This document shows positions 13,201 through 36,272 of a DNA stretch of 64,000 nt, in pieces (position 1 is the first letter of the stretch; each line of letters starts with the position of its first letter). Source of the stretch: Spongilla lacustris (Eukaryota > Porifera > Demospongiae > Spongillida > Spongillidae); contig OX442418.1 in the NCBI GenBank assembly GCA_949361645.1, forward strand, positions 10,016,632 through 10,080,631, given 5' to 3'. The notes under the pieces are model-generated. The model saw nothing but the letters and a program-made list of their open reading frames with translations, made no database searches and was not told the origin of the DNA. The position numbers were made by a program, and so were the translations under genes.

Positions 13201-13425
13201 ACAGGGTGTAAATGGGACCATGGATTTGACCCCAAGTACAGGTTGTACATATAAATGGACCATGGATTTGATCCCACAACAGAGGATGTAAATGGACCAT
13301 GGATTTGATCCCACAACCCAGGATACGATGTAAATGGATCATGGATTTGATCCCACAACAGAGGATGTAAATGGACCATGGATTTGATCCCACAACAGAC
13401 ACAAGTGCAGGGTGTAAATGGGACC
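10291..13425 (+). repeat. Satellite S, plus orientation (48/37-bp units)
   Basis: This is a tandem array of ACAAGTACAGGGTGTAAATG units. The long unit is 48 bp and ends GACCCCACAACAGAC. The short unit is about 37 bp and ends GATC, lacking 11 bp. Almost every unit carries CCATGGATTTGA, hence a CCATGG palindrome. The plus-strand text here is the reverse complement of the array at 15,682-19,068. Because 48 is a multiple of three and the unit has few stops, it yields open frames of up to about 150 residues with a 16-residue period. These are not treated as genes. Confidence 0.95.
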
Positions 13426-14121
13426 ACCGTCGTCACTGTACTAGCATAAATCTAGTAACCTTTCTCACGATCGTCGTATTCGCACCGCTCGAACTTCACG
13501 TCCGCCGATTGAAACTCTTATGACCTTGTCTTCAGTTGACGGCGCCATAAAGTTTATGTACGCAGAAGATAACGAAATAGGGATCGAATAGTATAACAAC
13601 TGCATGTGAGTCCGACCGGGAGATGGATTCACGTATCCAGCGCAGAGTAGGTGTGGCTCTAAGTTATCCAAGTGTCAGCCCACAGGAAGTAGTTGCATAT
13701 TCATGTATTTGGTGCATGGAAGCGGGTCACGCACGTACAACGGCGCGATTCGAGCGGGAAACTTGTAGCAACTTTGCGCCGCTGTATCTCCGTAACGGAT
13801 GACATAAAAATTAACGAACAGAACAAATCGATAGGTATACGACCTCTCTACCTACAAACCGAATTTGAAGCGATTTGATTACTCCTACAGAAAGTTATGG
13901 CAGGTTTGAACCCACAGGGGTATCGGACGTTGCAATACTGGCACGGAGGAAGTACAAGACCCCAAAATGTATTTTACCATAGAGAAATGGTGTAGTATAA
14001 AGTGTTAAAAATAAGAAGTTGATAGCTTCAACCGTTCGGAAGATATAGCGATTCAAAAGAGAAGCATTTTTATAACATTTTATATATATAAGCGAAGGGC
14101 CATTTTCGTGGAAACTGTCCC
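13426..14121 (-). repeat. Head module B of element 1 (terminal about 700 bp)
   Basis: Read from the terminus inward on the minus strand, it starts GGGACAGTTTCC at 14,121. It passes a GGCCCTTCG block, an AT-rich stretch, a conserved region around AACGAACAGAACAAATCGAT, and the small frame at 13,465-13,548, then ends where satellite S begins at about 13,425. The same module occurs inverted at 14,982-15,681 and in the same orientation at 28,947-29,641, with only scattered differences. It looks like the transposon end plus a promoter-like leader. Confidence 0.85.
13465..13548 (-). other. Conserved 27-residue frame in head module B, copy 1
   Basis: An ATG opens a short frame starting MAPSTEDKVIRVSIGG and ending in a basic run (RIRRS). 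Two other copies in the window (15,555-15,638 and 28,985-29,068) keep the same length and stop, and both begin MATSTEDKI. The frame ends in TCGTGAGAAAG, so the stop overlaps a good 5' splice site (GTGAGA). It may be the first exon of an ancestral gene of the element rather than a complete peptide. The function is unknown, and non-coding status is equally possible. Confidence 0.35.
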
Positions 14122-14137: not shown

Positions 14138-14957
14138 GGGACAGTTTCCGAGAAAATGGCCCTTCGTTTATTATTATAAAATCTTATAAAATTGCTTTGC
14201 ATTTGAATGGTAAAAACTTCCGAACGGTTAAGGCTATCGACTTTCTATTTTCAACACCACATACCACACCATTTCTCTACGGTAATATACATTTTGGAGT
14301 CTTGCACTTGCTCCGTGCCAGTATTGCAACGTCCGATACCCCACCGGGTTCAAACCCAACATAACTTTCTGTAGGAGTTATGAAATCGCTTCAAATTCGG
14401 TTTGTAGGTAGAGAGGTCCTATACCTATCGATTTGTTCAGTTCGTTGAATTTTATGCTATGCATTACGGAGATTCAGTTGAACAAACTTCGTGCACATTT
14501 TCGCGCTCGATTCGCGCCAATGATTTGAGCAAGTTGCGTTCCGCTCAATGTATGGGGAGGCGGGGATTATAACATTGGCGCGAATCAAGCGGGAAAACGT
14601 GCACGTAGTTTGCTCAACTGTATCTCCGTAACGGATAACATAAAAATTAACGAACAGAACAAATCGATAGGTATAGGACCTCTCTACCTACATACAGAAT
14701 TTGAAGCGATTTCATAACTCCTACAGAAAGTTATGTCGGGTTTAAACCTGATGGGGTATCAGTCGTTGCAATACTTGCACGGAGCAATTGCAAGACTCCA
14801 AAATGTATTTTACTGTAGAGAAATGGTGTGGTATGAGATGTTGAAAATAGGAAGTCGATAGCCTTCAACGTTCGAAAGTTATTACGATTCAAATGCAAAG
14901 CAATTTTATAACATTTTATTATAATAAACGAAGGGCCATTTTCTCGGAAACTGTCCC
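14138..14957. mobile_element. 820-bp miniature foldback element
   Basis: It begins GGGACAGTTTCCGAG at 14,138 and ends with the inverted form (CTCGGAAACTGTCCC) at 14,957. The whole unit is nearly palindromic about 14,548, where the centre holds TATGGGGAGGCGGGG between two GGCGCGAATC/GATTCGCGCC blocks. It shares the outer several hundred bases of head module B (AACGAACAGAACAAATCGAT, the GCAATACTTGCACGGAGC region) but lacks S, A and the small frame. It is flanked by AT-rich spacers of 16 bp (14,122-14,137) and 24 bp (14,958-14,981), which place it between elements 1 and 2. It has no coding capacity and must be non-autonomous. Confidence 0.85.
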
Positions 14958-14981
14958 ATATAATTATAATTATAATTATAT

Positions 14982-15681
14982 GGGACAGTTTCCGACAAAA
15001 TGGCCCTTCGTATATATATATAAAATGTTATAAAAATGCTTCTCTTTTGAATTGCTATATCTTCCGAACGGTTAACACTATCAACTTCCTATTTTCAACA
15101 CTTTGTACTACACCATTTCTCTATGGCAAAATACTTTTTGGGGTCTTGCACTTGCTCCGTGCCAGTATTGCAACGTCCGATACCCCTGTGGGTTCAAACC
15201 TGCCATAACTTTCTGTAGGAGTAATCAAATCGCTTCAAATTCGGTTTGTAGGTAGAGAGGTCGTATACCTATCGATTTGTTCTGTTCGTTAATTTTTATG
15301 TCATCCGTTACGGAGATACAGCGGCGCAAAGTTGCTACAAGTTTCCCGCTCGAATCGCGCCGTTGTACGTGCGTGACCCGCTTCCATGCACCAAATACAT
15401 GAATATGCAACTACTTCCTGTGGGCTGACACTTCGATAACTTATAGCCACACCTACTCTGCGCTGGATACGTGAATCCATCTCCCGGTCGGACTCACATG
15501 CAGTTGTTATACTATTCGATCCCTATTTCGTTATCTTCTGCGTACATAAACTTTATGGCGACGTCGACTGAAGACAAGATCATAAGAGTTTCAATTGGCG
15601 GACGTGAAGTTCGAGCGGTGCGAATACGACGATCGTGAGAAAGGTTACTAGATCTATGCTAGTACAGTGACGACGGTAATA
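14982..15681 (+). repeat. Head module B' (left end of element 2)
   Basis: This is the reverse complement of the modules at 13,426-14,121 and 28,947-29,641. It starts with the 13-base terminal word GGGACAGTTTCCG and then the GGCCCTTCG block. Near 15,320 it has the AAGTTTCCCGCTCGAATCGC text, then the small frame at 15,555-15,638, and it ends GACGACGGTAATATCCATGG where S begins. The copies differ by a handful of substitutions, so they are of recent common origin. Confidence 0.85.
15555..15638 (+). other. Conserved 27-residue frame in head module B, copy 2
   Basis: The frame starts MATSTEDKIIRVSIGGREV and ends RIRRS with its stop inside TCGTGAGAAAG. It lies about 570 bp from the element terminus and points inward, where the first exon of a transposon gene would be expected. 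It is the same length as the copies at 13,465 and 28,985. What follows is satellite, so no second exon can be found in this copy. Confidence 0.35.
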
Positions 15682-18600
15682 TCCATGGTCCCCGTTGTGG
15701 GATCAAATCCATGGTCCATTTACATGTACATCCTGTACTTGTGTAGTTTGGGGTCAAATCCATGGTCCCATTTACACCCTGTACTTGTGTCTGTTTAGGG
15801 TCAAATGTATGGTCCCATTTACACACTGTAGGTGTATCAATTGTGGGGTCAAATCCATGGTCCTGTACTTGTGTCTGTTGTGGGGTCAAATGCATGATCC
15901 CATTTACACCCTGTACTTGAGTCTGTTTAGGGTCAAATCTATGATCCCATTTACACCAGCACTTGTGTCTGTTGTGGGGTCAAATCTATGGTCCCATTTA
16001 CACCCTGTACTTGTGTCTATTGTGGGGTCAAATCCATGATCCCATGTACACCCTGTACTTGAGTATGCTCCATGGTTCCATTTACACCCTGTACTTGTGC
16101 CTGTTGTGGGGTCAAATCCATGGTCCCATTTACACCCTGTACTTGTGTCTATTGTGGGGTCAAATCCATGATCCATGGTTCCATTAACACCCTGTACTTG
16201 TGTCTGTTTTGGGGTCAAATCCATGGTCCCATTTACTCCCTGTACGTGTGATCAAATCCATGGTCCCATTTACACCCAGCCTATACTTGTGATCAAATCC
16301 ATGGTCCCATTTACACCCTGTATTTGTATCTGTTTAGGGTCAATTCATTGGTCCCATTTACATCCTGTACCTTTGTCTGTTGCGGGGTCAAATCCATGGT
16401 CCCATTTACACCTTGTACTTGTGATCAAATCCATGGTCCCATTTACACCCTGTATTCGTGTATGTAGTGGGGTCAAATCCATGGTTCCATTTACACCCTA
16501 TAATTGGTCTGTTGTGAGATCTAATTCATGGTCGCATTTACACCCTGTACTTGTGTCTGTTGTGGGGTCAAACTCATGCTCCCATTTACACCTAGAACTT
16601 GTGTCTGTTGTGGGTTCAAATCCATGGTCTGATTTACACCCTGTACTTGTGATCAAATCCATGGTCCCATTTACACACTGTACTTGTGTAAGTTGTGAGA
16701 TCTAATCCATGGTCCCATTTAACCCTGTACTTGTGTCTGTTGTGGGGTCAAATGCATGGTCCCATTAACACCCTGTACTTTAGTCTGTTTTAGGGTCAGA
16801 TCTATGGTCCCATTTACACTCTAAATGTGTGTATGTTTTGGGGTCAAATCATTGGTCCCATTTACACCCTGTACTTGTTGTGTCTATCGTGGGATATACA
16901 TGGTGTATGTGTCTGTTGTGGGATCAAATCCATGGTCCCATTTACATCCTGTACTAGTGTCTATTGTGGGATCAAATCCATGATTCCATTTGCTTTACAC
17001 CCTGTACTTGAGTATGCTGTGGGGTCAAATCCATGGTTCCATTTACACCCTGTACTTGTGTCTGTTGTGGGGTCAAACTCATGCTCCCATTTACACCTAG
17101 TACTTGTGTCTGTTGTGGGTTCAAATCCATGGTCCGATTTACACCCTGTACTTGTGATCAAATCCATGGTCCAATTTACACCCTGTACTTGTGATCAAAT
17201 CCATGGTCCCATTTACACACTGTACTTGTGTCTGTTGTGAGATCTAATCCATGGTCCCATTTAACCCTGTACTTGTGTCTGTTGTGGGGTCAAATGCATG
17301 GTCCCATTAACACCCTGTACTTTAGTCTGTTTTAGGGTCAGATCTATGGTCCCATTTACACTCTAAACGTGTGTATGTTTTGGGGTCAAATCATTGGTCC
17401 CATTTACACCCTGTACTTGTTGTGTCTATTGTGGGATATACATGGTGTATGTGTCTGTTGTGGGATCAAATCCATGGTCCCATTTACACCCTGTACTTGT
17501 GTTTGTTGTGGGGTCAAATCCATGGTCCTATTTACATCCTGTACTAGTGTCTATTGTGGGGTCAAATCCATGATTCCATTTGCTTTACACCCTGTACTTG
17601 AGTATGCTGTGGGGTCAAATCCACGGTTCCATTTATACCCTGTACTTGTGTCTGTTTTAGGGTCAGATCCATGGTCCCATTTACACCCTAAACTTGTGTA
17701 TGTTTTGGGGTCAAATCATTGGTTCCATTTACACCCTGTGCTTGTGTCTATTGTGGGATATTTGTGTCTGTTGTGGGATCAAATTTACACACTGTACTTG
17801 TGTCTGTTGGGAGGTCAAATCCATGGTCCCATTTGCACCCTGTACTTGTGTCTATTGTGGGGTCAAATCCATGATCCCATTTACACCCTGTACTTGAGTA
17901 TGCTGTGGGGTCAAATCCATGGTTCCATTTACACCCTGTTCTTGTGTCTGTTGTGGGGTCATATCCATGGTCTGCTTTACACCTTGTACTTGTGATCAAA
18001 TCCATGGTCTGCTTTACACCTTGTACTTGTGATCAAATCCATGGTCTGCTTTACACCTTGTACTTGTGATCAAATCCATGGTCTCATTTACACCCTGTAC
18101 TTGTGATCAAATCATCCATGGTCCGATTTACACCCTGTATATGTGATCAAATCCTTGGTCCCATTTACACCCTGTACTTGTGTCTGTTGTGAGATCTAAT
18201 CCATGGTCCCATTTAACCCTGTACTTGTGTCTGTTGTGGGGTCAAATCCATGGTCTGCTTTACACCCTGTACTTGTGATCAAATCCATGGTCCCATTTAC
18301 ACCCTGTACTTGTGTATGCTGTGGGGTCAAATCCATGGTTCCATTTACACCCTGTACTTAAATCTGTTTTAGGGTCAAATCTATGGTTCCATTTACACCC
18401 TGTACTTGAGTCTGTTTAGGGTCAATTCATTGGTCCCATTTACACCCTGTACTTTTGTCTGTTGTGGGGTCAAATCCACGGTCCGATGTACTCCCTGTAC
18501 TTGTGATCAAATCCATGGTCTCATTTACACCCTGTACTTGTGATCAAATCCATGGTCCGATTTACACCCTGTACTTGTGATCAAATCCATGGTCCCATTT

Positions 18601-19068
18601 ACACCCTGTACTTGTGATCAAATCCATGGTCCCATTTACACCCGGTATTTGTGTCTGTTGTGGGGTCAAATGCATGGTCCCATTTACACTCTGTACGTAT
18701 GTCTGTTGTGGGGTCAAATCCATGGTCTGCTTTACACCCTGTACTTGTGATGAAATCCAATGGTCCCATTTACACCGTGTACTTGTGTCTGTTGTGGGGT
18801 CAAATGCATGGTCCCATTTACACCCTATACTTTTGTCTGTTTTGGGGTCGAATCCATGGTTCCATTTACACCCTGTACTTAAATCAGTTTTAGGGTCAAA
18901 TCTATGGTCCCATTTACACCCTGTACTTGAGTCTGTTTAGGGTCAGTTCATTGGTCCCATTTACACCCTGTACTTTTGTCTGTTGTGGGGTCTAATTCAT
19001 GCTCCCATTTATACTCTGTATGTGTGTCTGTTGTGCGGTCAATTCATTGGTCCCATTTATACCCTGTA
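15682..19068 (-). repeat. Satellite S, minus orientation (left arm of element 2)
   Basis: The array is the inverted counterpart of the arrays at 10,291-13,425 and 21,410-28,946, with plus-strand units reading CAAATCCATGGTCCCATTTA and CACCCTGTACTTGTGTCTGT. Long (48 bp) and short (37 bp) units are mixed without a simple order. Blocks are internally duplicated: about 16,780-17,000 and 17,320-17,560 share the TTTGGGGTCAAATCATTGGT ... GTGGGATATACATGG series. Open frames up to about 200 residues are repeat products. Confidence 0.95.
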
Positions 19069-21409
19069 ATGGCCCTGGGTCTAACCAGGTCCGCTCCCTC
19101 ACTGCAAGTGGACAGAACCATGTATTAATGCAAGTTACCTTAATAGCCCCACACTACATGTCCAGTTAGAACCAGTGCATGGGGCACATGCAGAAGGAGT
19201 TATCAAACTGCCAGCAAGGGAGGAACCAGGTACTACAAAATCCTACAGGGTCATTGGGGGCCCCCACAATAATGCAGTTCTCACACTGCGATAGGAATCG
19301 GCGCCCCCCCCCCCCCCCCCCCCCCCCACCCCATTCGCCCCCATGGCCCTATCTCCCACTACCTATCCTCCTTTACTGCAATTTGTATCCTTTACTATCC
19401 GAGGCCCAGGCCATCCCCTACTCAATAGCACTCTCAGTCTCCACACAACCAGCCCTCCCACCTACCCACCCACCCCTAAACACCCCTCTTACATATGGTG
19501 TAATCAGACTGCCAACAAGGGAGCTGCCAGCTGCCACATTACCAGGATTGAATGGGGTCGTCACAAAAGTAGACCTCAGCACGTGGAGTGGAACCTTGAA
19601 CTGGAGCCAGCCCCAAACACTGGGGCCAGCCACAAAGGCCCCCTATCCTAGCCCCACACAGTACTAACACCAGCTCATCACTGCAAATGCAATAGAAGCC
19701 ACTACCTGTGAAACCATTAACCCCCACACTACAAGAGGACTTAATGGTAGGGGAACCATCAACTACAAGTGGAGTTACCAGCTCGCTGCATTGGACAAAT
19801 TGGAATACCACCACTGAAGCAGCCTCCATTTGTAGAGTGTACATACGTGCCTACGTTTTTCACTTCTCACATTTTGTGTTGTAGATCTGAACTACTGTAG
19901 ACATGTACATGTTTGTGCATGTACGGAGTAAATTTTATCTGCTATTAGTGGTGAAATAGTTACCAGCTGCCCTATCGGTACTGATTGCGGTGGGTCTGCA
20001 CCCGTGGTTGATTTATATAGACAACCAAGGCGCCTTGCTTTGCCTAAGCACTGTACGATCGCGAGTAGCAAAACACGGAAGTGCCATTTTGAATGTCACA
20101 TAAATTGCACGCACAGTCACAGCTACAATGTGGCACGATGAAGACATCAGAATTCATGACCACACAAGTGAAGTTAGCAGACCCTACACTGTCAGAGATG
20201 TCAACAGATCTAGACATTACCAGTGTAACCCAGTTTCACCTGTGCCCCACGGCCACTATATACACTGGCACATACATTTTAGCAGATATACAACAGCCTA
20301 GGGCTAGGTATACGCAAGTACGTAGTTGATGGATCCATTACATTTGTAGGGTCTGCTAGCTCCACTTGTGTGGTAATGAATTCTGATGTCTTCATCGTGC
20401 CACATTGTAGCTGTGACTGTGCATGCAATTTATGTGACATTCAAAATGGCACTTACATGTTTTGCTACTCGCGTACAGTAGTTCCCAGTAGCAGTAAGAG
20501 CAAAACGCCCTCTGTTGTCTATATAAACCAACCACGGGTGCAGACCCACCGCAATCAGTACCGATAGGGCAGATAACTATTTCACCACTAACAGCATCCA
20601 CACCAGATAAAATTTACTCTGTACATGTACATGTCTACGTACAGTAGTTCAGATCTGAAGAGACAAACGTAGGCACGTATGTACACTCTACAAATGGAGG
20701 CTGCTTCAGTGGTGGTATTCCATTTGTCCAATGCGAGCTGGTAACTCCACTTGTAGTTGATGGTTCCCCTAACAGTAAGTCCTCTTGTAGTGTGGGGTTA
20801 ATGGTTTCACAGGTAGTGGCTTCATTTGCATTTGCAGTGAGGAGCTGGTGTTAGTACTGTGTGGGGCTAGGATAGGGGGCCTTTGTGGCTTGCCCCAGTG
20901 TTTGGGGCCGGCTCCATTTCAAGGTTCCACTTCACATGCTGGGGTCTAGTTTTGTGACGACCACCCCATTCAACCCTGGTAATGTGGCGGCTGGCAGCTC
21001 TTCTGTTGGCAGTCTGATTACACCATATGTACGAGGGGTGTTTAGGGGTGGGTGGGTGGGTGGGTGGGTGGGTGGGTAGGCTGGTTGTGTGGGGACTGTG
21101 AGTGCTATAGAGTAAGGGGTGGCCTGGGCCTCGGATACAACTTGCAGTAAAGGAGGATAGGTAGTGGGAGATAGGGCCATGGTGGCGAATGCGGCATGTG
21201 TGAATCATTAATGAGAGAGCCCCCAATGACCCTGTAGGATTTTTTAGTACCTGGTTGCTCCCTTGCTGGCAGTCTGATAACTCCATCTGCAATTGCTCCA
21301 CTGATGCACTGGTGCTAACTGGACATGTAGTGTGGGGCTATTAAGTTAACTTGCATTAATGATTCTGTCCGCATGAAGTGAGGGAGCTGACCGGATTGGA
21401 CGCAGGGCC
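19069..21409. repeat. Inverted repeat A / A' (centre of element 2)
   Basis: Left arm text such as GCAAGGGAGGAACCAGGTAC near 19,215 and GGTCATTGGGGGC near 19,250 returns inverted near 21,220-21,270. The unpaired centre is about 20,178-20,352 and includes CCACGGCCACTATATACACT. It is closely similar to 8,244-10,290. The left arm has a poly-C run at about 19,303-19,327, and the right arm has a GGTGGGTGGGTGGG run near 21,050. No convincing gene is present. The open frames on the two arms are mirror images. Confidence 0.85.
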
Positions 21410-24400
21410 ATAACAGGGTATAAATGGGACCAATGAATTGACCGCACAACAGACACACATACAGAGTGTAAATGGGACCATGGATATGATCACAAGTACA
21501 GGTGTAAATGGGATCATGGATTTGAACACAAGTACAGGGTGTAAATCGCACCAAGGATTTCACCCCACAAGAGACAAAAGTACAGGGTGTAAATCAGACC
21601 ATGGATTTGACCCACAACAGACACAAGTACAGGGTGTAAATGGGACCATATATTTGATTACATGTACAGGGTGTAAATCAGACCATGGATTTGACCCCAC
21701 AACAGCCAAAAGTACAGGGTGTACAAGTGTAAATGGGAGCATGAGTTTGACCCCACAACAGACACGAGTACACAATTACAGGATGGGACCATGGATTTGA
21801 TCACAAGTACAGGGTGTAAATCAGACCATGGATTGACCCCACAACAGACAAAAGTACAGGTGTAAATGGGAGCATGAGTTTAACCCCACAACAGACAAAA
21901 GTACAAGGGTGTTAATGAGACCATGCATTTGACCCCAAAACAGACACAAATACAGGGAGTAAATGGGACCATGGATTTGATCACAAGTACAGGCTGGGTG
22001 TAAATGGGACCATGGATTTGATCACAATTCCAGAAGTAAATCGGACCATGGATTTGACCCCAAAACAGACACAAGTACAGGGTGTAAATGGAACCATGGA
22101 GCATGAATTTGACCCCACAACAGACAAAAGTACAAGGGTGTTAATGGGACCATGCATTTGACCCCAAAACAGACACAAGTACAGGGTGTAAATGGAACCA
22201 TGGAGCATGAATTTGACCCCACAACAGACAAAAGTACAAGGGTGTAAATGGGATCATGCATTTGACCCCAAAACAGACACAAATACAGGGTGTAAATGGG
22301 ACTATGGATTTGATCACAAGTACAGGCTGGGTGTGAATGGGACCATGGATTTGATCACACGTACAGGGAGTAAATCGGACCATGGATTTGACCTCAAAAC
22401 AGACACAAGTACAGGGTGTAAATGGAACCATGGATCATGGATTTGACCCCACAATAGACACAAGTACAGGGTGTAAATGGGACCATGGATTTGACCCCAC
22501 AACAGACAGAAGTACAGGGTGTAAATGGGACCATGCATTTGACCCCACAACATACACAAATACAGGGTGTAAATGAGACCATGGATTTGATCACAAGTAC
22601 AGGCTGGGTGTAAATGGGACCATGGATTTGATCACAAGAACAGGGAGTAAATCGGACCATGGATTGACCCCACAACAGACAAAAGTACAGGGTGTAAATG
22701 GGACCATGCATTTGACCCCACAACATACACAAATACAGGGTGTAAATGGGACCATGGATTTGATCACAAGTATAGGCTGGGTGTAAATGGAACCATGGAT
22801 TTGATCACACATACAGGGAGTAAATCGGACCATGGATTTGACCCCAAAACAGACACAAGTACAGGGTGTAAATGGAACCATGGATCATGGATTTGACCCC
22901 ACAATCGACACAAGTAAAGGGTGTAAATAGGACCATGGATTTGACCCCACAACAGACAGAAGTACAGGGTGTAAATGGGACCACAGATTTGACCCTAAAG
23001 CAGACAAAAGTACCTGGGTGCAAATGGGAGCATGAGTTTGACCGCATAACAGACACAAGTACAGGTTGTAAATCGGACCATGGATTTGATCTTAAAACAG
23101 ACTCAAGTACAGGGTGTAAATGGGAGCATGAGTTTGACCCCATAATAGACACAAGTACAGGGTGTAAATGGGACCATGGATTTGACCCCACAACATACAC
23201 AAATACAGGGTGTAAATGAGACCATGGATTTGATCACAAGTACAGGCTGGATGTAAATGGGACCATGGATTTGATCACAAGTACAGGGAGTAAATCGGAC
23301 CATGGATTTGACCCCAAAACAGACACAAGTACAGGGTGTAAATGGAACCATGGAGCATGAGTTTGACCCCACAACAGACAAAAGTACAGGGTGTAAATGG
23401 GACCATGCATTTGACCCCACAACATACACAAATACAGGGTGTAAATGGGACCATGGATTTGATCACAAGTATAGGCTGGGTGTAAATGGAACCATGGATT
23501 TGATCACACATACAGGGAGTAAATCGGACCATGGATTTGACCCCAAAACAGACACAAGTACAGGGTGTAAATGGAACCATGGATCATGGATTTGACCCCA
23601 CAATAGACACAAGTACAGGGTGTAAATAGGACCATGGATTTGACCCCACAACAGACAGAAGTACAGGGTGTAAATGGGACCACAGATTTGACCCTAAAGC
23701 AGACAAAAGTACCTGGGTGCAAATGGGAGCATGAGTTTGACCGCATAACAGACACAAGTACAGGTTGTAAATCGGACCATGGATTTGATCTTAAAACAGA
23801 CTCAAGTACAGGGTGTAAATGGGAGCATGAGTTTGACCCCATAATAGACACAAGTACAGGGTGTAAATGGGACCATGGATTTGACCCCACAACATACACA
23901 AATACAGGGTGTAAATGAGACCATGGATTTGATCACAAGTACAGGCTGGATGTAAATGGGACCATGGATTTGATCACAAGTACAGGGAGTAAATCGGACC
24001 ATGGATTTGACCCCAAAACAGACACAAGTACAGGGTGTAAATGGAACCATGGAGCATGAGTTTGACCCCACAACAGACAAAAGTACAAGGGTGTAAATGG
24101 GACCATGCATTTGACCCCACAACAGACAGAAGTACAGGGTGTAAATGGAACCATGGATTTGATCACAAGTAACAGGCTGGGTGTAAATGGGACCATGGAT
24201 TTGATCACAAGTAACAGGCTGGGTGTAAATGGGACCATGGATTTGATCATAAGTAACAGGCTGGGTGTAAATGGGACCATGGATTTGATCACAAGTACAG
24301 GGAGTAAATCGGACCATGGATTTGACCCCAAAACAGACACAAGTACAGGGTGTAAATGGAACCATGGATCATGGATTTGACCCCACAATAGACACAAGTA

Positions 24401-25431
24401 CAGGGTGTAAATGGGACCATGGATTTGACCCCACAACAGACAGAAGTACAGGGTGTAAATGGGACCACAGATTTGACCCTAAAGCAGAAAAAAGTACCTA
24501 GGTGCAAATGGGAGCATGAGTTTGACCGCATAACAGACACAAGTACAGGTTGTAAATCGGACCATGGATTTGATCACAAGTAACAGGCTGGGTGTAAATG
24601 GGACCATGGATTTGATCACAAGTACAGGGAGTAAATCGGACCATGGATTTGACCCCAAAACAGACACAAGTACAGGGTGTAAATGGAACCATGGATCATG
24701 GATTTGACCCCACAATAGACACAAGTACAGGGTGTAAATGGGACCATGGATTTGACCCCACAACAGACAGAAGTACAGGGTGTAAATGGGACCACAGATT
24801 TGACCCTAAAGCAGACAAAAGTACCTGGGTGCAAATGGGAGCATGAGTTTGACCGCATAACAGACACAAGTACAGGTTGTAAATCGGACCATGGATTTGA
24901 TCACAAGTAACAGGCTGGGTGTAAATGGGACCATGGATTTGATCACAAGTACAGGGAGTAAATCGGACCATGGATTTGACCCCAAAACAGACACAAGTAC
25001 AGGGTGTAAATGGAACCATGGATCATGGATTTGACCCCACAATAGACACAAGTACAGGGTGTAAATGGGACCATGGATTTGACCCCACAACAGACAGAAG
25101 TACAGGGTGTAAATGGGACCACAGATTTGACCCTAAAGCAGACAAAAGTACCTGGGTGCAAATGGGAGCATGAGTTTGACCGCATAACAGACACAAGTAC
25201 AGGTTGTAAATCGGACCATGGATTTGATCTTAAAACAGACTCAAGTACAGGGTGTAAATGGGAGCATGAGTTTGACCCCATAATAGACACAAGTACACGG
25301 TGTAAATGGGACCATGGATTTGACCCCACAACATACACAAGTACAGGGAGTAAATGGGACCATACATTTGACCCTAAACAGACTGAACTACAGGGTGTAA
25401 ATGGGACCATGGATTTGACCCCACAACAGAC
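21410..25431 (+). repeat. Satellite S, plus orientation (right arm of element 2, outer to the hAT insertion)
   Basis: These are 48/37-bp S units in plus orientation. Multi-unit blocks are tandemly amplified: 22,790-23,250 and 23,490-23,950 are near-identical (offset about 699 bp), and the block with AAGTAACAGGCTGGGTGTAA is repeated near 24,160-24,280, 24,575 and 24,905. The block near 24,640-24,900 recurs at 24,967-25,230 (offset 327 bp). This shows recent unequal exchange within the arm. Confidence 0.95.
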
Positions 25432-26635
25432 TAGGGTGTGTAACCTCCCCTGAATAATGAAAATCGATTTTTCCGAATACTTTTAAAACACTAATCGATT
25501 TTTCAGGTTTTTCTGGATCTGAAAATCGATTTTTCCGAATACTTGAAAAAAGAAAATCGATTTTTCCGAATAGGTTTTGACAATTTGCCAGCCGAATACC
25601 TAGGTTATTCAGGTTTTCTGCTCATTGAGCCACCTAAATGTACACATCACACCAGAGACCCTCCTACAGCTACCCACATCACACCAGATACCCTCAGCAC
25701 ACAAACACACCTATCCCCATCACACCAGATGCTCTCAGCACACAAACACACCTACCCCCATCACACCAGATACCCTCATGAGACACACAACCATAGCTTC
25801 CCCCATCACACCAGATGCCCTACTACAACTATCCACATTACACCAGATCAGTACCCTCAGCATGCATCCACAGCTACCCACATCACACCAGATGCACTCA
25901 GCACACAACCACAGCTACCTACATAGGCCTAAATCGCTTGGCCTAACCACATACCTAGTTGGGCGTGTCCCGACCTAAGTTAGCGTGGCCACGCTGAGCT
26001 TTACCAGTACCTACAGTCTACAGATGTACACATCGCACTTGATGCCAACAGAATAGAACCACAGATGACGTTTACGCACTACCAGCCATGCAGCCTCCAT
26101 TTTACCATCGCGAGTTTTGAAAATACTAGTAACTAAGTAGGCCTTAGTACGATCGCGGCAACATCAGCTCAGAGAGATTGATGCAAGAAGCCAGCTGGTT
26201 CAAAATACACTAAGCGAACTGACTTTGATTTGTAGCTGGAGCTATCCGTCGCCATGACACGTGGAAGAGGGAGATCTCGTTTGGCTACATGTAGTTCGAA
26301 TTACTGCCCGTATTTGATCTCGTCCCCACGTATATATTTATAGTAACAGCAGTGACGTTATAACTTTAAATTAGAAGTAATTATTGTCGTACATGTAATA
26401 TCGTAAACGCGTATCCGGATATCGTCATAAAAATGTATTCGAATAATGAGCGAATTGTCGATGCGGACGACGAATACCTAAGTACCTCCGAATGGAGATT
26501 CACAAACCGGTTATTTCGAATAGAACAAATCCAATAATCGATTTTTCCGAGTAATGCTAAATCACTATTCGAGCGGATAGGTTTTTGCGAATATCCGAAT
26601 AACCCGAATAACCTGATAACCGGTTACACACCCTA
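25432..26635. mobile_element. Non-autonomous hAT-like element in satellite S
   Basis: The termini are inverted: TAGGGTGTGTAACC at 25,432 and GGTTACACACCCTA ending at 26,635. The 8 bp CAACAGAC occur directly on both sides (25,424-25,431 and 26,636-26,643) and belong to the S unit, so this is a perfect 8-bp target duplication, the hallmark of hAT transposons. The element is 1,204 bp. Inside are repeats of AAAATCGATTTTTCCGAATA near the left end (25,459-25,580), a diverged tandem series of CACATCACACCAGATACCCT words (25,640-25,920) and CCGAATAACC words near the right end. No transposase frame is visible. Confidence 0.88.
25640..25925 (+). repeat. Degenerate tandem repeat inside the hAT element
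   Basis: About seven imperfect copies of a CATCACACCAGATACCCTCA-type unit (roughly 40-45 bp) follow one another. They give threonine/histidine/proline-rich open frames of 117-127 residues in two phases at once, which is expected from a repeat and not from a gene. Confidence 0.8.
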
Positions 26636-28946
26636 CAACAGACACAAGTACAGGGTGTAAATGGAACCATGGATTTGACCCCACAGCATACTCAAGTACA
26701 GGGTGTAAAGCAAATGGAACCATGGATTTGACCCCACAGCATTCTCAAGTACAGGGTGTTAAGCAAATGGAATCATGGATTTGATCCCACAATAGACACT
26801 AGTACATGATGTAAATAGGACCATGGGTTTGACCCCACAACAGACACAAGTACACATGTACAGGGTGTAAATGGAACCATGGAGCATGAGTTTGACCCCA
26901 CAACAGACAAAAGTACAAGGGTGTAAATGGGACCATGCATTTGACCTCAAAACAGACACAAATACAGGGTGTAAATGGACCATGGATTTGATCACAAGTA
27001 ACAGGCTGGGTGTAAATGGGACCATGGATTTGATCACAAGTACAGGGAGTAAATCGGACCATTGATTTGACCCCAAAACAGACACAAGTACAGGGTGTAA
27101 ATGGAACCATGGATCATGGATTTGACCCCACAATAGACACAACTACAGGGTGTAAATGGGACCATGGATTTGACCCCACAACAGACAGAAGTACAGGGTG
27201 TAAATGGGACCATAGATTTGACCCTAAAGCAGACAAAAGTACGCAGTGCAAATGGGAGCATGAGTTTGACTGCATAACAGACACAAGTACAGGTTGTAAA
27301 TCGGACCATGGATTTGATCTTACAACAGACTCAAGTACAGGGTGTAAATGGGAGCATGAGTTTGACCCCATAATAGACACAAGTACACGGTGTAAATGAT
27401 GGATTTGACCCCACAACATACACAAGTACAGGGTGTAAATGGGATCATGGATTTGACCCCACAACATACACAAGTACAGGTATAAATGGGACCATACACT
27501 TCACCCTAAACAGACTCAACTACAGGGTGTAAATGGGACCATGGATTTGACCCCACAACAGACACAAGTACAGGGTGTAAATGGAACCATGGATTTGACC
27601 CCACAGCATACTCAAGTACAGGGTGTAAAGCAAATGGAATCATGGATTTGATCCCACAATAGACACTAGTACAGGATGTAAATGGGACCATGGATTTGAT
27701 CCCACAACAGACACATACGCCATGTATATCCCACAATAGACACAACAAGTACAGGGTGTAAATGGGACCAATGATTTGACCCCAAAACATACACACGTTT
27801 AGAGTGTAAATGGGACCATAGATCTGACCCTAAAACAGACTAAAGTACAGGGTGTTAATGGGACCATGCATTTGACCCCACAACAGACACAAGTACAGGG
27901 TTAAATGGGACCATGGATTAGATCTCACAACTTACACAAGTACAGTGTGTAAATGGGACCATGGATTTGATCACAAGTACAGGGTGTAAATCGGACCATG
28001 GATTTGAACCCACAACAGACACAAGTTCTAGGTGTAAATGGGAGCATGAGTTTGACCCCACAACAGACACAAGTACAGGGTGTAAATGCGACCATGAATT
28101 AGATCTCACAACAGACCAATTATAGGGTGTAAATGGAACCATGGATTTGACCCCACTACACACACGAATACAGGGTGTAAATGGGACCATGGATTTGATC
28201 ACAAGTACAAGGTGTAAATGGGACCATGGATTTGACCCCGCAACAGACAAAGGTACAGGATGTAAATGGGACCAATGAATTGACCCTAAACAGATACAAA
28301 TACAGGGTGTAAATGGGACCATGGATTTGATCACAAGTATAGGCTGGGTGTAAATGGGACCATGGATTTGATCACACGTACAGGGAGTAAATGGGACCAT
28401 GGATTTGACCCCAAAACAGACACAAGTACAGGGTGTTAATGGAACCATGGATCATGGATTTGACCCCACAATAGACACAAGTACAGGGTGTAAATGGGAC
28501 CATGGATTTGACCCCACAACAGGCACAAGTACAGGGTGTAAATGGAACCATGGAGCATACTCAAGTACAGGGTGTACATGGGATCATGGATTTGACCCCA
28601 CAATAGACACAAGTACAGGGTGTAAATGGGACCATAGATTTGACCCCACAACAGACACAAGTGCTGGTGTAAATGGGATCATAGATTTGACCCTAAACAG
28701 ACTCAAGTACAGGGTGTAAATGGGATCATGCATTTGACCCCACAACAGACACAAGTACAGGACCATGGATTTGACCCCACAATTGATACACCTACAGTGT
28801 GTAAATGGGACCATACATTTGACCCTAAACAGACACAAGTACAGGGTGTAAATGGGACCATGGATTTGACCCCAAACTACACAAGTACAGGATGTACATG
28901 TAAATGGACCATGGATTTGATCCCACAACGGGGACCATGGATATTA
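26636..28946 (+). repeat. Satellite S, plus orientation (right arm, inner to head B)
   Basis: The array resumes in the same phase after the hAT insertion. The final kilobase (about 27,760-28,946) mirrors 15,682-16,820 of the left arm almost unit for unit, down to the same small frames in reverse. The outermost part of the two S arms is therefore a faithful inverted copy, while the inner parts have diverged in unit number. Confidence 0.95.
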
Positions 28947-29641
28947 CCGTCGTCACTGTACTAGCATAGATCTAGTAACCTTTCTCACGATCGTCGTATT
29001 CGCACCGCTCGAACTTCACGTCCGCCGATTGAAACTCTTATGATCTTGTCTTCAGTCGACGTCGCCATAAAGTTTATGTACGCAGAAGATAACGAAATAG
29101 GGATCGAATAGTATAACAACTGCATGTGAGTCCGACCGGGAGATGGATTCACGTATCCAGCGCAGAGTAGGTGTGGCTATAAGTTATCGAAGTGTCAGCC
29201 CACAGGAAGTAGTTGCATATTCATGTATTTGGTGCATGGAAGCGGGTCACGCACGTACAACGGCGCGATTCGAGCGGGAAACTTGTACCAACTTTGCGCC
29301 GCTGTATCTCCGTAACGGATGACATAAAAATTAACGAACAGAACAAATCGATAGGTATACGACCTCTCTACCTACAAACCGAATTTGAAGCGATTTGATT
29401 ACTCCTACAGAAAGTTATGGCAGGTTTGAACCCACAGGGGTATCGGACGTTGCAATACTGGCACGGAGCAAGTGCAAGACCCCAAAAAGTATTTTGCCAT
29501 AGAGAAATGGTGTAGTACAAAGTGTTGAAAATAGGAAGTTGATAGTGTTAACCGTTCGGAAGATATAGCAATTCAAATGAGAAGCATTTTTATAACATTT
29601 TATATATATATACGAAGGGCCATTTTGTCGGAAACTGTCCC
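28947..29641 (-). repeat. Head module B (right end of element 2)
   Basis: This is the near-exact inverse of 14,982-15,681. It ends CGAAGGGCCATTTTGTCGG then AACTGTCCC at 29,641, and AT-rich sequence follows. A single base change relative to copy 1 (near 29,288) is among the few differences. Confidence 0.85.
28985..29068 (-). other. Conserved 27-residue frame in head module B, copy 3
   Basis: It has the same frame and length as at 15,555-15,638, starting MATSTEDKI and ending RIRRS at a TGA that overlaps a GTGAGA splice-donor-like site. The match in both arms of element 2 is expected if the arms are homogenised by gene conversion, so conservation alone does not prove coding function. Confidence 0.35.
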
Positions 29642-29700
29642 ATATATATATATACCGGTATATATTATAATTATAATAATTTATATATATAATTATATAT
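29642..29700. other. AT-rich junction between elements 2 and 3
   Basis: About 59 bp of TATATA/ATAATT text with one ACCGGT palindrome. Like the spacers at 14,122-14,137 and 14,958-14,981, it separates two element ends that face each other. It may be the target sequence the family prefers. Confidence 0.6.
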
Positions 29701-30223
29701 GGAACGTTCTATGAGATTTTGATGCTTGTGAATTTTATATATATAGCATCCAATTCAAAGCGCTATATCTTCAAAAGGGTTTGCACTATTGACTTTCTAT
29801 TTTCAGCACTTCATACTACACCATTTCTCTATGCTAAAATATATTTTGGGGTCTTGCACTTACTCCGTGCCAGGATTGCAACGTCCGATACCACACCGGG
29901 TTCAAACCCGACATAACTTTAGGTAGGAGTAATCAAATCGCTTCAAATTCGGTTTGTAGGTAGAGAGGTCCTATACCTATTGATTTGTTCTGTTCGTTAA
30001 TTTTCATACAAACCGTTACGGAGAAACAGCTGTGCAAAGTAAGTACACGTTTCCCGCTCGAATCGCGCCTTTATATGTACACGGAACAGTTTCCATTCGC
30101 CGGAGTGCATGAATATTCAACTATTCCTATAGGGCGTGATAACCACACCTATAAGGTCACCAAACAAACGGGCGGCTGAATTGTAGTGCTTGTTACGGTT
30201 GTTTTTCGGTGTAGATAAACGAT

Positions 30224-30472
30224 ATGGTGACGTATAACACGAGTGAAGGCGAGCTCGTCGAGTCACTGAATCAGTCGGCGGATGAGTTCGAACTATACGA
30301 ATACGACGATCGATATTCAAGCTCGATACATTGGACGAGGATGGAGAGATTGAGAAAAGTAGCGATGGCGGTCGTACCACTGACGTTGGTGGTTGTATTA
30401 GTGATAGGGAGTGAGCAGCCCCTGAATTACCAAAAGAGCCACCAGCCCCACCCCCACATAGCCAGGGGCTAA
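30224..30472 (+). CDS. Short membrane-type protein frame in left arm of element 3
   Basis: An 82-residue frame starting MVTYNTSEGELVESLNQ. Residues about 1-45 are acidic and polar (DEFELYEYDDRY), then a basic WTRMERLRK stretch leads into a hydrophobic run of about 18 residues (VAMAVVPLTLVVVLVIGS), and then it enters the arm repeat and stops. This is the shape of the N-terminal cytoplasmic tail and signal anchor of a type II membrane protein. The same protein is encoded, without change, in the opposite arm (36,273-36,521). It occupies the position of the small frame in head B of elements 1 and 2, and both contain GAATACGACGATCG. It may be a captured or ancestral first exon. The function is unknown. 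Confidence 0.4.
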   Translation: MVTYNTSEGELVESLNQSADEFELYEYDDRYSSSIHWTRMERLRKVAMAVVPLTLVVVLVIGSEQPLNYQKSHQPHPHIARG

Positions 30473-30479
30473 TGGGGCT

Positions 30480-33240
30480 AGGCCCTTCACTACAAGTTCG
30501 CTCAGCAGCCCTGGGGCCAAAGAGGCCATCCCCACACAGCAGAACCACAAGCCCCCTCACTGCAAGTGCACACTATATACCTTTGGAACCATTATGCCTC
30601 ATGCTGCAATTTAAATTAATGGCCTCACATTCCAAATAGTGGAGCCATCAAGTGGAATTAACAGGCCCCATACTTCCAGCAAGGGAGCCACCAGCTAACC
30701 TGGCCAATGGAGCTAACATCCACAATGCCAGTGGAGACACCAGCCCTCTCGCAGATAGATCATCAGACACCCACACTGCCAGCAGGGATGTGGCCCCCAC
30801 AATAATGCCAGTGGAGATGCCAGCCCTCAGGCTGCAAATGGAATCAGCATCCCCAACAATTTCAGGGGAGCAATGAACTACATGTACCAACAACACGTGA
30901 TGACCTCACTACCAGATCAATCATTAACCCTCACTCCACAAGTGGTCTTAACAGGCTCCACACATTGGGACCAACCCCCCCCCACTATCTTTCTTTCAAT
31001 ACAGGTTGAGTCAACTGGGATCCCCCACACAGTAGAACCACCAGCCCCCTCACCCCAAGCTCATGAACAATACCAGTGGAACCTGTAAAGTCTACACTGC
31101 AACTGAACTTAATAAATAAAGCCTCACACTGCAGCCAGCAGCCCATGGAACCATTCTTACAGAACACCCTCAGCTACCCAGGGCCAATGGGGTAGCCTCC
31201 ACAAAGTCAGTGAAGATGCCACCCCAAGTTGAGTAGCAGCCCCCACACAAACAAGGGCCAATAGGGCCAGCCCCACACAGTACAACTACCAGCCCCTCTC
31301 TGCTCACTTCAAATAGAGCCACTAGACCCTCTACCAGTACACACTGCAAGTCCAGACAGCAGGCCACATGAGTGGAGCCCTCTCACCGATGGATCGAGCC
31401 CAGCAAGGAAGTACCAGCTGCCACACAACCAGTGGTTAATCGAGCCCCCAGAATAATGCCAGTGGAGAAACCAGCCCTCGCACTGCAAGTGGATTCAGCA
31501 ACCCCAAAAATTTCAGGGGTACATGTAAATGTACTTGAGGGGGAAAAGAAAACTACACATGCCCTCTTCAAGCACTACAACAGAACAAGTGGAACTTTAA
31601 GCCCTCATAGTTAATATGTAGCAGTCCCCACAGCCCTCCCCCCTACTAACAATGAAAGAGGGGCCAATCAGCCAATGGGACAGTACAACCACCAACCCTC
31701 TTCATTGGTCAGGGGACATATACCATGAACACATGCCGTCACAACCAGTTGAACCTCAATGCAAGTGGACTTAACAGACCCACCACACACTGGTGCCAGC
31801 CCTCCCCCCCCCCCCCCTCAGCCCCCCTCTGCTCACTACGTGTCCTTCACTGCAAGTTGCGTCAGCTGTCCATGAGCCAATGGGAGCCATAGAACTACCA
31901 CTCCGCCTCACTGTAATCACACACTACCTTTGGAACCAACCATTAACCCCCATACTGCAAGTGAACTCAATACTGCAAAACCTGACCCCCACACTGCCAG
32001 CAAGGGAGCACCAGCTGTCATACAACCAGAGTGTCAATGTGGCCCCCACTTAATGCCAGTGGAGAAGGCAGCCCTCACACTGTAAATGGAGTCAGTAGCC
32101 CCATGCAACAATTTCAGTGGACATGTGCATGTACCAATGGAATCACACATGCCTCCTTCAAACACTACCAGTGGAATGTTTAGCCCTCACAGCAAGTGGA
32201 CTTATTCCTTAGCAGCCTCCACAGCGCCCACCCCCCCCCCCCCCCCACTACCTGTCCTTTACTGAAAGAGGGGGTTAATGGGACCATCCCCACACAGTAC
32301 AACTACCAGCCTTCCTCATTGCAAGCCAATGGAACCTCTGCTCAAACATTGGAGCTACCAGCCTTCTCACAAATAGAGTTATCATACCCCCACACTGCTA
32401 GCAGAAATGTGGCCCCCACAATAATGCCAGTGGAGATGCCAGCCATCACACAGCAAATGGAGTCGGCATCCCCACCAATTTTAGGGGAGCCACTAACTAC
32501 ATGTATCGATAACACATGCCCTCACTACCAGATGAGCCATTAATCCTCACTCCACAAGTGGACCTAGCAGGGCCCCCGCTACCTTTCTATTGCTGCATAT
32601 AAGTTGAGTCAGCATTTGAGGGGCCACCACCAGCCCCCTCACCTCAAGCTCGTGAACAATACCAGTGGAACCTGTAAAGTGTTCCCTACAACTGAACTTA
32701 ATAGCCTCACATGTCCATGCCCATGCACAACTTATGGAACCATTCCAGAGCCGATGGGGTAGCCTCCACAAAGCCAGTACCCAAGTTGAGTCAGCAGCCT
32801 CCACACAAACAGGAGCCTGTAGGGCCAGCTCCGCACAGTACAACCACCAGCCCCTCTCTGCTCACTTCAAATGGAGCCACTAGGCACACTGCAAGTCCAG
32901 TCAGCCATCAGCTGCCACATAACCAGGCGTCACCCCACAATAATGCCAGCCCTCTGAACTACATGTACCAATGGACCCACACATTCCCTGCTCCTAACAC
33001 AACACATGGAACCAGTGGAACCATTAGCCCTCACTGCAATTGGACTTATATTAGCACTGGGGCCAGCTCCTGTCCTTTACAATCAACGGTCCAGAGCCCC
33101 CCCCCCCCCCCCCCAAACTGCATATGGACTTGGCACCCCGACAGTTTTAGACAAGCCATCATCTACCAGTGGAGCTACTAGCCCCCACACTATGTGTAAA
33201 TTACCAGTCCCTATTGGAGCCACTGTATACCTGTTTTCTG
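30480..33240. repeat. Left arm of element 3: degenerate short tandem repeat
   Basis: Repeated words are CCAGCCCTCACACTGCAAGT, AGTGGAGCCACCAG and GGGGCCAATGGG, spaced roughly 30-60 bp with strong drift. Poly-C runs lie near 31,806, 32,231 and 33,097. The inner part (about 30,868-32,210) is repeated in the same direction at about 34,240-35,640. Open frames are proline, serine and threonine rich and differ between copies by small indels, so no gene is called. Confidence 0.8.
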
Positions 33241-33690
33241 TGCACACAATTTTATCTGAGGTGAAGTGAAGCCTTGTTATTGGTGGGTGAAATCATTACC
33301 TGCCCTATCAGTACTGATTTAGGGTGGTAGTTGGTTTATATAGGCAAGCAAGGCATACAAGAAGGTTTGAGTTGTACATCTAAAATGTACATGTACCCTC
33401 TTGCTGGAAACTAGTGCTTTATGTACATGGAGCAATAAGTACCATTTTAAATGTCATAAAAGTAACATGTGGAATATACAACTGCATGTAAATTGCACAC
33501 GTAGGCACAGTCCATAAAGGCAACAATATTATGCATCACACCTTCCCAAGTGAAGTTAGCAGACCCCACACTGTCAGCAAAGTCACCAGCCTCCTCACTA
33601 CCAGTGTAACCCACACATGAAGGGGAACCATTTGTAGAGTATGGGCATTATTATGGGGGCTCCATTGACGGCTGGCAGTGAACGGTTTGA
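33241..33690. repeat. Centre of element 3 (related to the A centre)
   Basis: CCTGCCCTATCAGTACTGAT near 33,300 and GGTTTATATAGGCAA near 33,330 correspond to CCTGCCCTATCGGTACTGAT and GGTTTATATAGACAA near 8,880-8,930 in module A, and AAGTGAAGTTAGCAGACCCC near 33,550 to the same words at 9,080. This shows that elements 1, 2 and 3 are one family at their centres. Confidence 0.75.
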
Positions 33691-35640: not shown

Positions 35641-36272
35641 AGTGGACTTATTCCATTGGTACATGTGCGTACATGCACATGTCCCCTGAAATTGTTGGGG
35701 CTACTGACTCCATTTCCAGTGTGAGGGCTGCCTTCTCCACTGGCATTAAGTGGGGGCCACATTGACACTCTGGTTGTGTGACAGCTGGTGCTCCCTTGCT
35801 GGCAGTGTGGGGCTTAAAGTTCCACTTGTTCTGTGATGAGGTCATCACGTGTTGTTGGTACCTGTAGTTCATAGCTCCCCTAAAATTGTTTGGGATGCTG
35901 ATTCCATTTGCAGCCTGAGGGCTGGCATCTCTACTGGCATTATTGTGGGGGCCACATCCCTGCTGGCAGTGTGGGTGTCTGATGATCTATCTGCGAGAGG
36001 GCTGGTGTCTCCACTGGCATTGTGGATGTTAGCTCCATTGGCCAGGTTAGCTGGTGGCTCCCTTGCTGGAATTATGGGGCCTGTTAATTCCACTTGATGG
36101 CTCCACTATTTGGAATGTGAGGCCATTAATTTAAATTGCAGCATGAGGCATAATGGTTCCAAAGGTATATAGTGTGCACTTGCAGTGAGGGGGCTTGTGG
36201 TTCTGCTGTGTGGGGATGGCCTCTTTGGCCCCAGGGCTGCTGAGCGAACTTGTAGTGAAGGGCCTAGCCCCA

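Follow-up and report, generated by a model that had tools for sequence, protein, structure and literature searches.

A giant foldback element in Spongilla lacustris, probably the non-coding partner of a gene-bearing class that shares its ends

Introduction

Many foldback elements are known solely in forms that lack a transposase gene, Tetris of Drosophila virilis being an example (PMC4079207). As described in that source, Tetris is built, in mirror image, of an end domain, internal tandem repeats in variable number and an inner domain, shares its ends with a short partner, DAIBAM, and carries repeats that have seeded satellite DNA, while its target site duplications (TSDs) measure 8–10 bp and no transposase was found (PMC4079207). 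MuTAnT of Medicago truncatula combines foldback arms with insertion into TA microsatellites, and is described as having a 9-nt TSD, a mudrA-type transposase and elements of ~0.2–1.6 kb (PMC4486113). Galileo, a member of the P superfamily in Drosophila, also has long inverted arms with internal repeats, and occurs in gene-bearing and two-arm-only forms; the transposase is of P type, arms reach ~1.26 kb in D. mojavensis, and the mean length of nearly complete copies is 5.2 kb (PMC3573991). Sola2 elements have AT-rich 4-bp TSDs (AWWT, including ATAT) and, in one family, an 888-aa transposase; those described have TIRs of 12–21 bp and no foldback arms (PMC3627910).

Here, we analyze a complete foldback element in a 64,000-nucleotide window of the Spongilla lacustris genome, together with its relatives elsewhere in the assembly. 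Its mirrored, repeat-filled arms resemble those of Tetris and Galileo, its giant copies share ends with a short relative as Tetris does with DAIBAM, and insertion into TA-rich DNA is held in common with MuTAnT. In contrast to Tetris as described, the sponge family has a 4-bp TSD, arms of 4–9 kb and a gene-bearing class (PMC4079207), and its arms are several times longer than those described for Galileo (PMC3573991).

Structure of the window element

The coordinates of the element and its neighbors are given in Table 1. The identical inverted ends claimed in a preliminary description of this DNA were recovered as GGGACAGTTTCCG at 14,982 (plus strand) and its complement at 29,629–29,641, and the mirrored order of head B, satellite S and module A about 20,265 was likewise borne out by both heads, both modules and the opposite orientation of the S arrays. 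The unequal arms, put at 5.3 and 9.4 kb, measured 5.2 and 9.4 kb to the core and held 72 and 134 S-core matches, respectively. The hAT said to lie in one arm is a 1.2-kb insert whose hAT-like label rests on an 8-bp TSD, CAACAGAC, and on inverted termini that agree at 14 of 16 bases. hAT elements have 8-bp TSDs; the insert agrees with this, but the foldback itself, with 4 bp in its AGAT and ACAT copies, does not.

Left head B also holds an ATG (head position 574), followed by the decayed first ~120 bp of a transposase-like ORF, and probably includes a promoter-like stretch. A coding role for module A was dropped, as neither of two ORFs in the A region (window 20,870–21,337 and 19,170–19,664) had a Pfam match.

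Table 1. Features of the foldback element and its neighbors (window positions)
Feature	Position	Strand	Remarks
Neighboring giant foldback, right half	8,244–14,121	-	A, S and head B with end GGGACAGTTTCCACG
Complete palindromic short member	14,138–14,957	none	820 bp; two ~380-bp B-like arms; end to end between two giants
Left target duplication	14,978–14,981	none	ATAT; 4 bp, sized from AGAT/ACAT copies
Window element, complete foldback	14,982–29,641		14.7 kb; two mirrored arms and GGGACAG inverted ends
Left head B	14,982–15,677	+	Terminal inverted repeat at outer end
Left satellite S array	15,677–19,068	-	~48-bp unit plus ~37-bp variants
Left module A	19,069–20,187	+	Mirrored by A'
Central spacer	20,188–20,344	none	~157 bp between A and A'; within "mid" (20,150–20,399)
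Right module A'	20,345–21,411	-	~82% identity to left module A (21,411–20,345 against 19,069–20,188)
Right S array, inner section	21,413–25,431	+	S repeat matches
hAT-like insert within right S array	25,432–26,635	none	TSD CAACAGAC at 25,424–25,431 and 26,636–26,643
Right S array, outer section	26,636–28,945	+	S repeat matches
Right head B	28,946–29,641	-	99.6% identity to left head (29,641–28,942 against 14,982–15,681)
Right target duplication	29,642–29,645	none	ATAT; matches left copy
Decayed foldback, other end subfamily	29,701–36,617	none	GGAACGTTC...; inverted repeat 30,128–30,908 / 35,837–36,617, 98.8%

Family copies and target sites

In a genome search for copies and their flanks, the 11 copies read all had 4-bp TSDs and the plan B-S-A-mid-A'-S-B between the same ends, which supports the giant foldback family proposed in the preliminary description; as to its being undescribed, no already described match was found in the open-licence literature covered by our search. 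Across the genome, the end pattern had 1,208 and 1,188 matches versus 0 for a reversed-pattern control, and these matches are not due to chance. Two of the elements (E1 and E4), both 13,095 bp long and located 12.4 Mb apart, were 99.99% identical, differing at ~1 base, and had unlike flanks; the same size was found at five places. A 4-bp direct repeat flanked 24 of 25 elements examined (the exception being L047) as well as 11 of 11 giants, that is, 35 of 36 elements. Target duplications were mostly ATAT in TA-rich DNA, and the window element's own, sitting in a TA tract, gives no TSD length alone; the length is settled at 4 bp by copies flanked by AGAT/AGAT and ACAT/ACAT. None of the 36 elements had 9 bp common to both flanks, and 21 had 6 bp, as expected for TA tracts. 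Judging from sequence, complete elements flanked by 4-bp TSDs occur as exact units at different places in the genome, and the window element belongs to a young mobile family.

Exact end pairs (n = 38) enclosed a coding core (17.6–23.0 kb) in 20 cases, the mid core in 17 and neither in one, and 24 of 100 listed ends were unpaired. Conversely, 34 copies of mid were considered, namely those on fully listed contigs among the best 40 of 356 candidates; 17 lay within an exact end pair and seven more had one inward end. B, S and A are therefore mostly not found apart from each other, the situation that the preliminary description had set against its own proposal, although the remaining 10 of 34 mid copies had no exact end nearby. 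Among 100 listed S matches on C1, complete pairs contained 37, and a further 35 were no more than 15 kb from a selected listed end; of the other 28, 21 were enclosed by ends of another subfamily (C1:4,836,492–4,857,969) and seven were near no listed end.

For each of the 20 arms compared (E4 being left out as a copy of E1), the S array of the mate was on average more distant than the same-side arrays of other elements. The S arrays of an element's two arms are thus shown to be separate lineages rather than fresh copies of one another, and we rejected the idea that arms are re-copied from each other at every transposition, given the closer likeness between same-side arrays of different elements. 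The window copy is a possible local exception. Its arms were alike at 99.3% over their outermost 2,133 bp in a single stretch (counting pieces of at least 97% identity), whereas the next longest outer match among the 11 copies was 1,312 bp, with none listed for E6, E7 and E8; given this unusual similarity, arm-to-arm conversion may happen.

The other satellite, S2, is related to S, their score of 39 being reached in 0 of 500 shuffles (maximum of 22). S occurs beyond the window element's subfamily, and large members of two other subfamilies (L029 and L030) are without it. A derivation of S from head B was unsupported, with a score of 19 versus a shuffle mean of 17.4 and 83 of 300 shuffles scoring as high.

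Gene-bearing relatives

The same terminal 38 bp bound the window element and the 17.6–23 kb class. In the one gene-bearing element that was read whole, others being placed by coordinates, an intact 891-aa DUF7869 ORF lies 596 bp inside one end, the opposite arm holds a deleted copy of the gene, and the arms carry a satellite different from S. In the 18-kb copy, the left arm equals the right one except that it lacks 1.67 kb of the gene. The 891-aa protein scored 58 bits against DUF7869 (PF25273; curated cut-off of 26), and among 25 ends chosen for a nearby DUF7869 match, that match lay 2,035 bp inside the end in 24 and 2,041 bp in one. Window head B aligns with the gene-bearing end up to and just past the start codon, the first 84 bp being identical, which gives the window element the look of a non-coding partner of that class. 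An autonomous relative of the kind that the preliminary description suggested looking for, in which two B-type heads flank a transposase-like gene, hence seems to exist, and the giant foldback reading is refined accordingly: the window copy would be the non-coding partner rather than the gene-bearing form, with S shared with another subfamily.

Two further end subfamilies show the same gene placement. Based on 44 DUF7869 matches, a match was present in 15 and absent from five of the 20 large TTTCCACG pairs that came from the first 100 among 263 places; for large TTCACGAC pairs (drawn from 83 of 100 listed of 137 places), 17 of 35 held one, all at 1,964 bp from an end, and 18 did not.

Pfam lists DUF7869 among its domains of unknown function, and no paper using the term was found in the open-licence literature searched. 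We infer that the protein is a transposase. DDE transposases are recognized by an RNase H fold with an acidic triad; two structure prediction attempts for the core of the 891-aa protein gave mean pLDDT values of 53 and 32, too poor for fold comparison, and a search of solved structures by sequence gave weak matches only (best E of 0.022). The motif DNCVGQNKN was noticed in the protein by eye. Two plus-strand ORFs in the 18-kb core, considered as a possible second gene, had no Pfam match.

The CtIP/Sae2-like core gene

The core of the 17.6–23 kb class contains a CtIP/Sae2-like gene. CtIP, Ctp1 and Sae2 are cofactors of the Mre11 complex, CtIP/Sae2 being the hairpin-cutting cofactor. The element gene has their C-terminal PF08573 domain in common, matched in its last exon at 26.5 bits (cut-off of 19.8; profile positions 74–110 of 110). 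All 42 PF08573 candidates in the genome were scored, comprising 41 nearly identical matches above the cut-off and one lower-scoring host-like gene at C9:9,181,445, and no PF08573 domain was found outside the element class and this host-like locus. Compared to the host-like gene, exon 1 of the element gene carries a frameshift and stops, and the CxxC exon has no counterpart, meaning that the intact N-terminal coiled coil and CxxC motif of CtIP are both lacking. Downstream, a 119-aa frame is still open; its three exons have splice-like borders, it has a stop, and it depends on one weak donor site.

We lean towards the gene being a passenger, that is, a captured and already broken copy riding in the core of a successful element. 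Beyond the damage to exon 1 and the absence of another exon, the order of exons and some intron segments agree with the host-like gene, so the gene was probably taken up as DNA, and 35 of 40 scored cores (87 candidates) were identical over 2,001 bp including the frameshifted exon 1, and thus share the break. Less easily accommodated are the restriction of the domain in this genome to the element class and one host-like locus, and the third-position bias in the coil and last exons (5, 6 and 16 differences by codon position in the former; 6, 5 and 25 in the latter), which points to constraint through much of the gene's history.

Alternatively, the gene could be a working helper, its product activating Mre11-Rad50 at hairpins and either processing transposition intermediates or enabling cells to survive and replicate giant palindromes. 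In yeast, MRX/Sae2 acts at the hairpins of palindromes (PMC8053094), and the above-threshold domain, its 41 genomic matches and the open 119-aa frame are consistent with such a role. Over 54 codons, the last exon differed from that of the host-like gene by 36 bases and 10 residues, with 25 of the 36 at third positions (dN of 0.11; dS of 2.1, near saturation; ratio of 0.05), and a number of residue changes this low arose in none of 5,000 simulations under full neutrality. However, neutrality since capture is only loosely opposed by this result: when only half of the changes were assigned to a neutrally evolving element lineage, as few residue changes came out in 7.3% of simulations, and 4.7% were also stop-free, and the constraint may predate capture and have been kept in a host paralog. 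The near-identity of the copies is recent and carries no information on selection, and a protein search with the CtIP-like exon found no homolog. Together with the broken first exon, the missing CxxC exon and the reliance of the frame on a single weak donor site, this makes a helper role possible but unlikely. That a giant-palindrome transposon acquired and uses a CtIP/Sae2-derived host gene, thereby editing the repair response to its own structure, is to us distinctly doubtful.

Origin and classification

Considering the results as a whole, the window element is best explained as a non-autonomous giant foldback DNA transposon, a reading to which we assign a probability of roughly 0.87. It has the features of FB-type elements, namely long inverted arms at a short spacer, tandem repeats in variable number within the arms, and mobility as a unit with a TSD, the last as read from sequence. 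The DUF7869 protein would bind the shared heads, excise or copy the element, and insert it at ATAT-like sites, commonly into TA tracts beside resident members, which would produce end-to-end chains. The element probably originated by gaining two inverted transposase-bearing arms, after which one gene may have been deleted in the gene-bearing class (left arm) and both lost in the window class, with satellite arrays expanding within the arms.

P and Galileo elements have TSDs of 7–8 bp, and neither these nor a P-type transposase were found here. Sola2 termini are of the GRG type, and the ends of the sponge family begin with GGG. The 4-bp TSD, AT-rich as in Sola2, fits that group and argues against Mutator (TSD of 8–11 bp, Mutator-type transposase, neither of which was observed). 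At 891 aa, the DUF7869 protein is also close in length to the transposase of one Sola2 family (888 aa). Arms filled with satellite, a foldback form, short relatives and insertion into TA tracts are all described in Mutator-linked foldbacks (PMC4486113, PMC4079207), and would suit a Mutator-like foldback of the MuTAnT or Tetris kind that targets TA microsatellites. Such an assignment is nonetheless very unlikely, given a 4-bp TSD with no 9-bp repeat at any of 36 elements and a resident DUF7869 gene in whose 891-aa product a Pfam scan at E up to 1 detected no Mutator transposase domain. Least credible is an immobile palindrome produced by replication-fork template switching or misassembly, with B, S and A as independent repeats: fold-over synthesis or faulty long reads can create large inverted repeats, but against this stand the recurrence of the same ends at dozens of loci, the 4-bp TSDs of 35 of 36 elements with flanks read, S arrays on average nearer to same-side arrays than to mates in 20 of 20 arms, and two 99.99% identical 13-kb elements with differing flanks.

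Gene-bearing and non-coding partners with shared ends coexist in this one genome and, together with the near-identical 13-kb copies, make the tolerance and copying of 4–9-kb inverted arms by the cell testable. DUF7869 gains a mobile-element setting, and a CtIP-like gene within a palindromic element poses a direct question on transposons and hairpin repair.

Neighboring elements

A 907-aa DUF7869 frame 3.4 kb to the left of the window may be the gene of the giant foldback whose right half lies nearest to it in Table 1. Family members often adjoin other members end to end: 15 junctions of at most 100 bp were counted among 215 listed ends on C1–C4, compared to a random mean of 0.012 and a maximum of 1 in 1,000 runs.

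Structure and copies of the giant foldback element

As the preliminary description had claimed, the element is a complete foldback: both ends are exact inverted copies, and the arms mirror each other, with heads (B) 99.6% alike, satellite (S) arrays opposite in direction, and inner modules (A) placed face to face around a spacer of ~157 bp. The arms (5.2 and 9.4 kb) are unequal because S copy number differs (72 vs. 134 S-core matches) and a hAT-like insert is present in one, also as proposed. The 248.6-Mb genome was searched with head B, and ten copies with both heads among the best 40 of 3,149 candidates were read; these and the window element (11/11) share the order B-S-A-mid-A'-S-B and the same ends, with the central region (mid) occurring in both orientations. 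Two copies, E1 and E4, align over their full length at 99.992% and have different flanks. S arrays were closer to same-side arrays of other elements than to their mate in 20/20 arms; left-arm and right-arm arrays are separate lineages passed on jointly, and movement therefore preserves the whole molecule. A relative of the window element has a left-arm ORF that matched 23 proteins, two of them labelled by name or code as Ephydatia muelleri (75%–76% identity, spanning 49% and 25% of the query), which makes a freshwater sponge the probable host.

Locations of family members and other features
Feature	Location	Details
Chain member 1	Window 8,244–14,121	
Chain member 2	Window 14,138–14,957	
Chain member 3	Window 14,982–29,641	Element under study
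Chain member 4	Window about 29,701–36,617	
hAT-like insert	Window 25,432–26,635	TSD CAACAGAC
E1, E4	C1 at 10.92 and 23.37 Mb	13,095 bp each
Gene-bearing copy	C2:8,523,687–8,541,706	18,020 bp; read whole, in three pieces
Possible second gene	L052 4,431–5,815 (+)	Repeat-rich; last ORF W/P/R-rich
71-bp satellite	Window 3–8,244	~118 copies; adjoins module A of left neighbor element
Finger/transposase fragments	Window 40,405–42,917 (−)	C2H2-like finger, weak Transposase_21 (0.001); all under cut-off
TIR-domain ORF	Window 44,378–45,701 (−)	TIR_2, 2.6e-11; overlapped by second ORF
22-bp tandem repeat	Window 51,590–51,928	15.4 copies, 99% matches
(GAG)n	Window 62,863–64,000	379 units, 100% match; runs to window end
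Short palindromes	Window 36,793–37,024; 54,282–54,760; 57,170–57,588; 60,604–61,262	

A gene-bearing class with the same ends

The exact 38-bp end of the window element has 72 + 65 matches in the genome, and pairing inward-facing ends among the first 100 of these 137 places gave 38 pairs, with 24 ends left over. Among the places listed, 20 of the 38 pairs, of 17.6–23.0 kb, enclose a coding core, 17 enclose the non-coding mid core (16 of 10.3–15.4 kb and one of 22.7 kb), and one encloses neither. A gene-bearing copy between B-type heads, which the preliminary description suggested seeking, was thus found: with the shared 38-bp ends, its right arm carries an intact 891-aa ORF that starts 596 bp inside the end and encodes a protein matching PF25273 (DUF7869; 1.3e-15), with C2H2-like fingers under curated cut-offs. 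Apart from a loss of 1.67 kb of the gene, the left arm equals the right, and both hold S2, a 58-bp satellite that is related to S by sequence. The window head B aligns along its length with the end of this copy (first 84 bases identical), including the ATG and ~120 bp of decayed coding sequence. The 18-kb core may hold a second gene, two ORFs of which had no match in a Pfam scan.

End subfamilies and chains

The general end pattern TGGGAMAGTTYMCGVSAAAA had 2,396 genome matches (control, 0); it does not catch the TTTCCACG end type, which had 263. Pairs from the first 100 listed TGGGAMAGTTYMCGVSAAAA places comprised 24 of 797–827 bp, 10 of at least 8.3 kb, and one of 572 bp. B-like arms, inverted and ~380 bp long, occur in the short elements checked, that of the window and chain L031. 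Three large elements of other subfamilies were examined: L029 and L030 are 96%–98% palindromes without S, and mirroring in L051 is limited to the outer 2.2 kb (93%). End-to-end junctions of ≤100 bp numbered 15 among 215 listed ends on contigs C1–C4 (random mean, 0.012), and the window itself carries a four-member chain. Two short elements 48 kb apart (L039 and L040) have identical flanks over the 45 bp compared on each side and are therefore probably part of a duplicated segment.

Target sites and a candidate transposase

A 4-bp direct repeat flanks 24/25 elements in one flank-read set (exception, L047) and all 11 giants. ATAT within TA tracts is commonest, and a 2-bp duplication is excluded because AGAT/AGAT (L037) and ACAT/ACAT (L050) are present. 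Six flank bases are shared in 21/36 elements, as TA tracts permit, and nine in none of the 36.

In the genome search for DUF7869 (150 of 239 candidates scored), 40 matches had a common 61.6-bit signature, with open frames of 889–896 aa and one of 659; 14 control genomes gave zero matches. Such a gene lies upstream on the same strand at 37/41 coding cores. Among 25 ends chosen for nearness to DUF7869 genes, the distance to the match was exactly 2,035 bp in 24 and 2,041 bp in one. With 44 of the listed DUF7869 matches used, one fell inside 15/20 large TTTCCACG pairs (1,969–2,034 bp from the end in 14, 2,814 bp in one) and 17/35 large TTCACGAC pairs (all 1,964 bp); the latter were built from 83 of 100 places listed. 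Given both limits, absences in the two subfamilies carry little weight.

The sequences show ends common to both classes, a resident gene at near-fixed distance, exact unit copies, a 4-bp TSD, and chains. We infer that the DUF7869 protein, in which an aspartate-bearing motif (DNCVGQNKN) was spotted by eye, is the transposase; it would cut members of either class and insert them at sites resembling ATAT. Tetris (PMC4079207) and Galileo (PMC3573991) are alike in form to the giant foldback, MuTAnT (PMC4486113) in target choice, and Sola2 (PMC3627910) in TSD. Mutator and P disagree with it in TSD and domain.

CtIP-like gene in the coding core

The core of the 18-kb copy contains an exon matching PF08573 (SAE2/CtIP C-terminus; 26.5 bits vs. 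cut-off 19.8). Genome-wide there were 41 such matches and one below cut-off in that search, at C9:9,181,445, an exon that by itself scores 22.0 and sits in a host-like gene whose exon order matches the element copy. Over 54 codons, the two exons differ at 36 bases, 25 at third positions (dN 0.11, dS near saturation), and 7.3% of half-neutral simulation runs gave as few residue changes. In the element gene, exon 1 has a frameshift and stops, the CxxC exon of the host-like gene has no counterpart in the element copy compared with it, and a downstream 119-aa frame is still open. Of the 40 coding cores scored, from 87 candidates, 35 show no difference across 2,001 bp, suggesting a recent burst; this identity is silent on selection. 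Yeast MRX/Sae2 attacks hairpins of palindromes (PMC8053094). The CtIP-like gene is more likely a passenger than a helper.

Other features of the window

The 71-bp satellite may lie inside the left neighbor element, and the finger/transposase fragments are probably an old transposon of a different kind. The TIR-domain region, whose second ORF looks membrane-bound by eye, resembles an animal receptor gene. The palindrome near 61 kb includes ~150 bp similar to head B.
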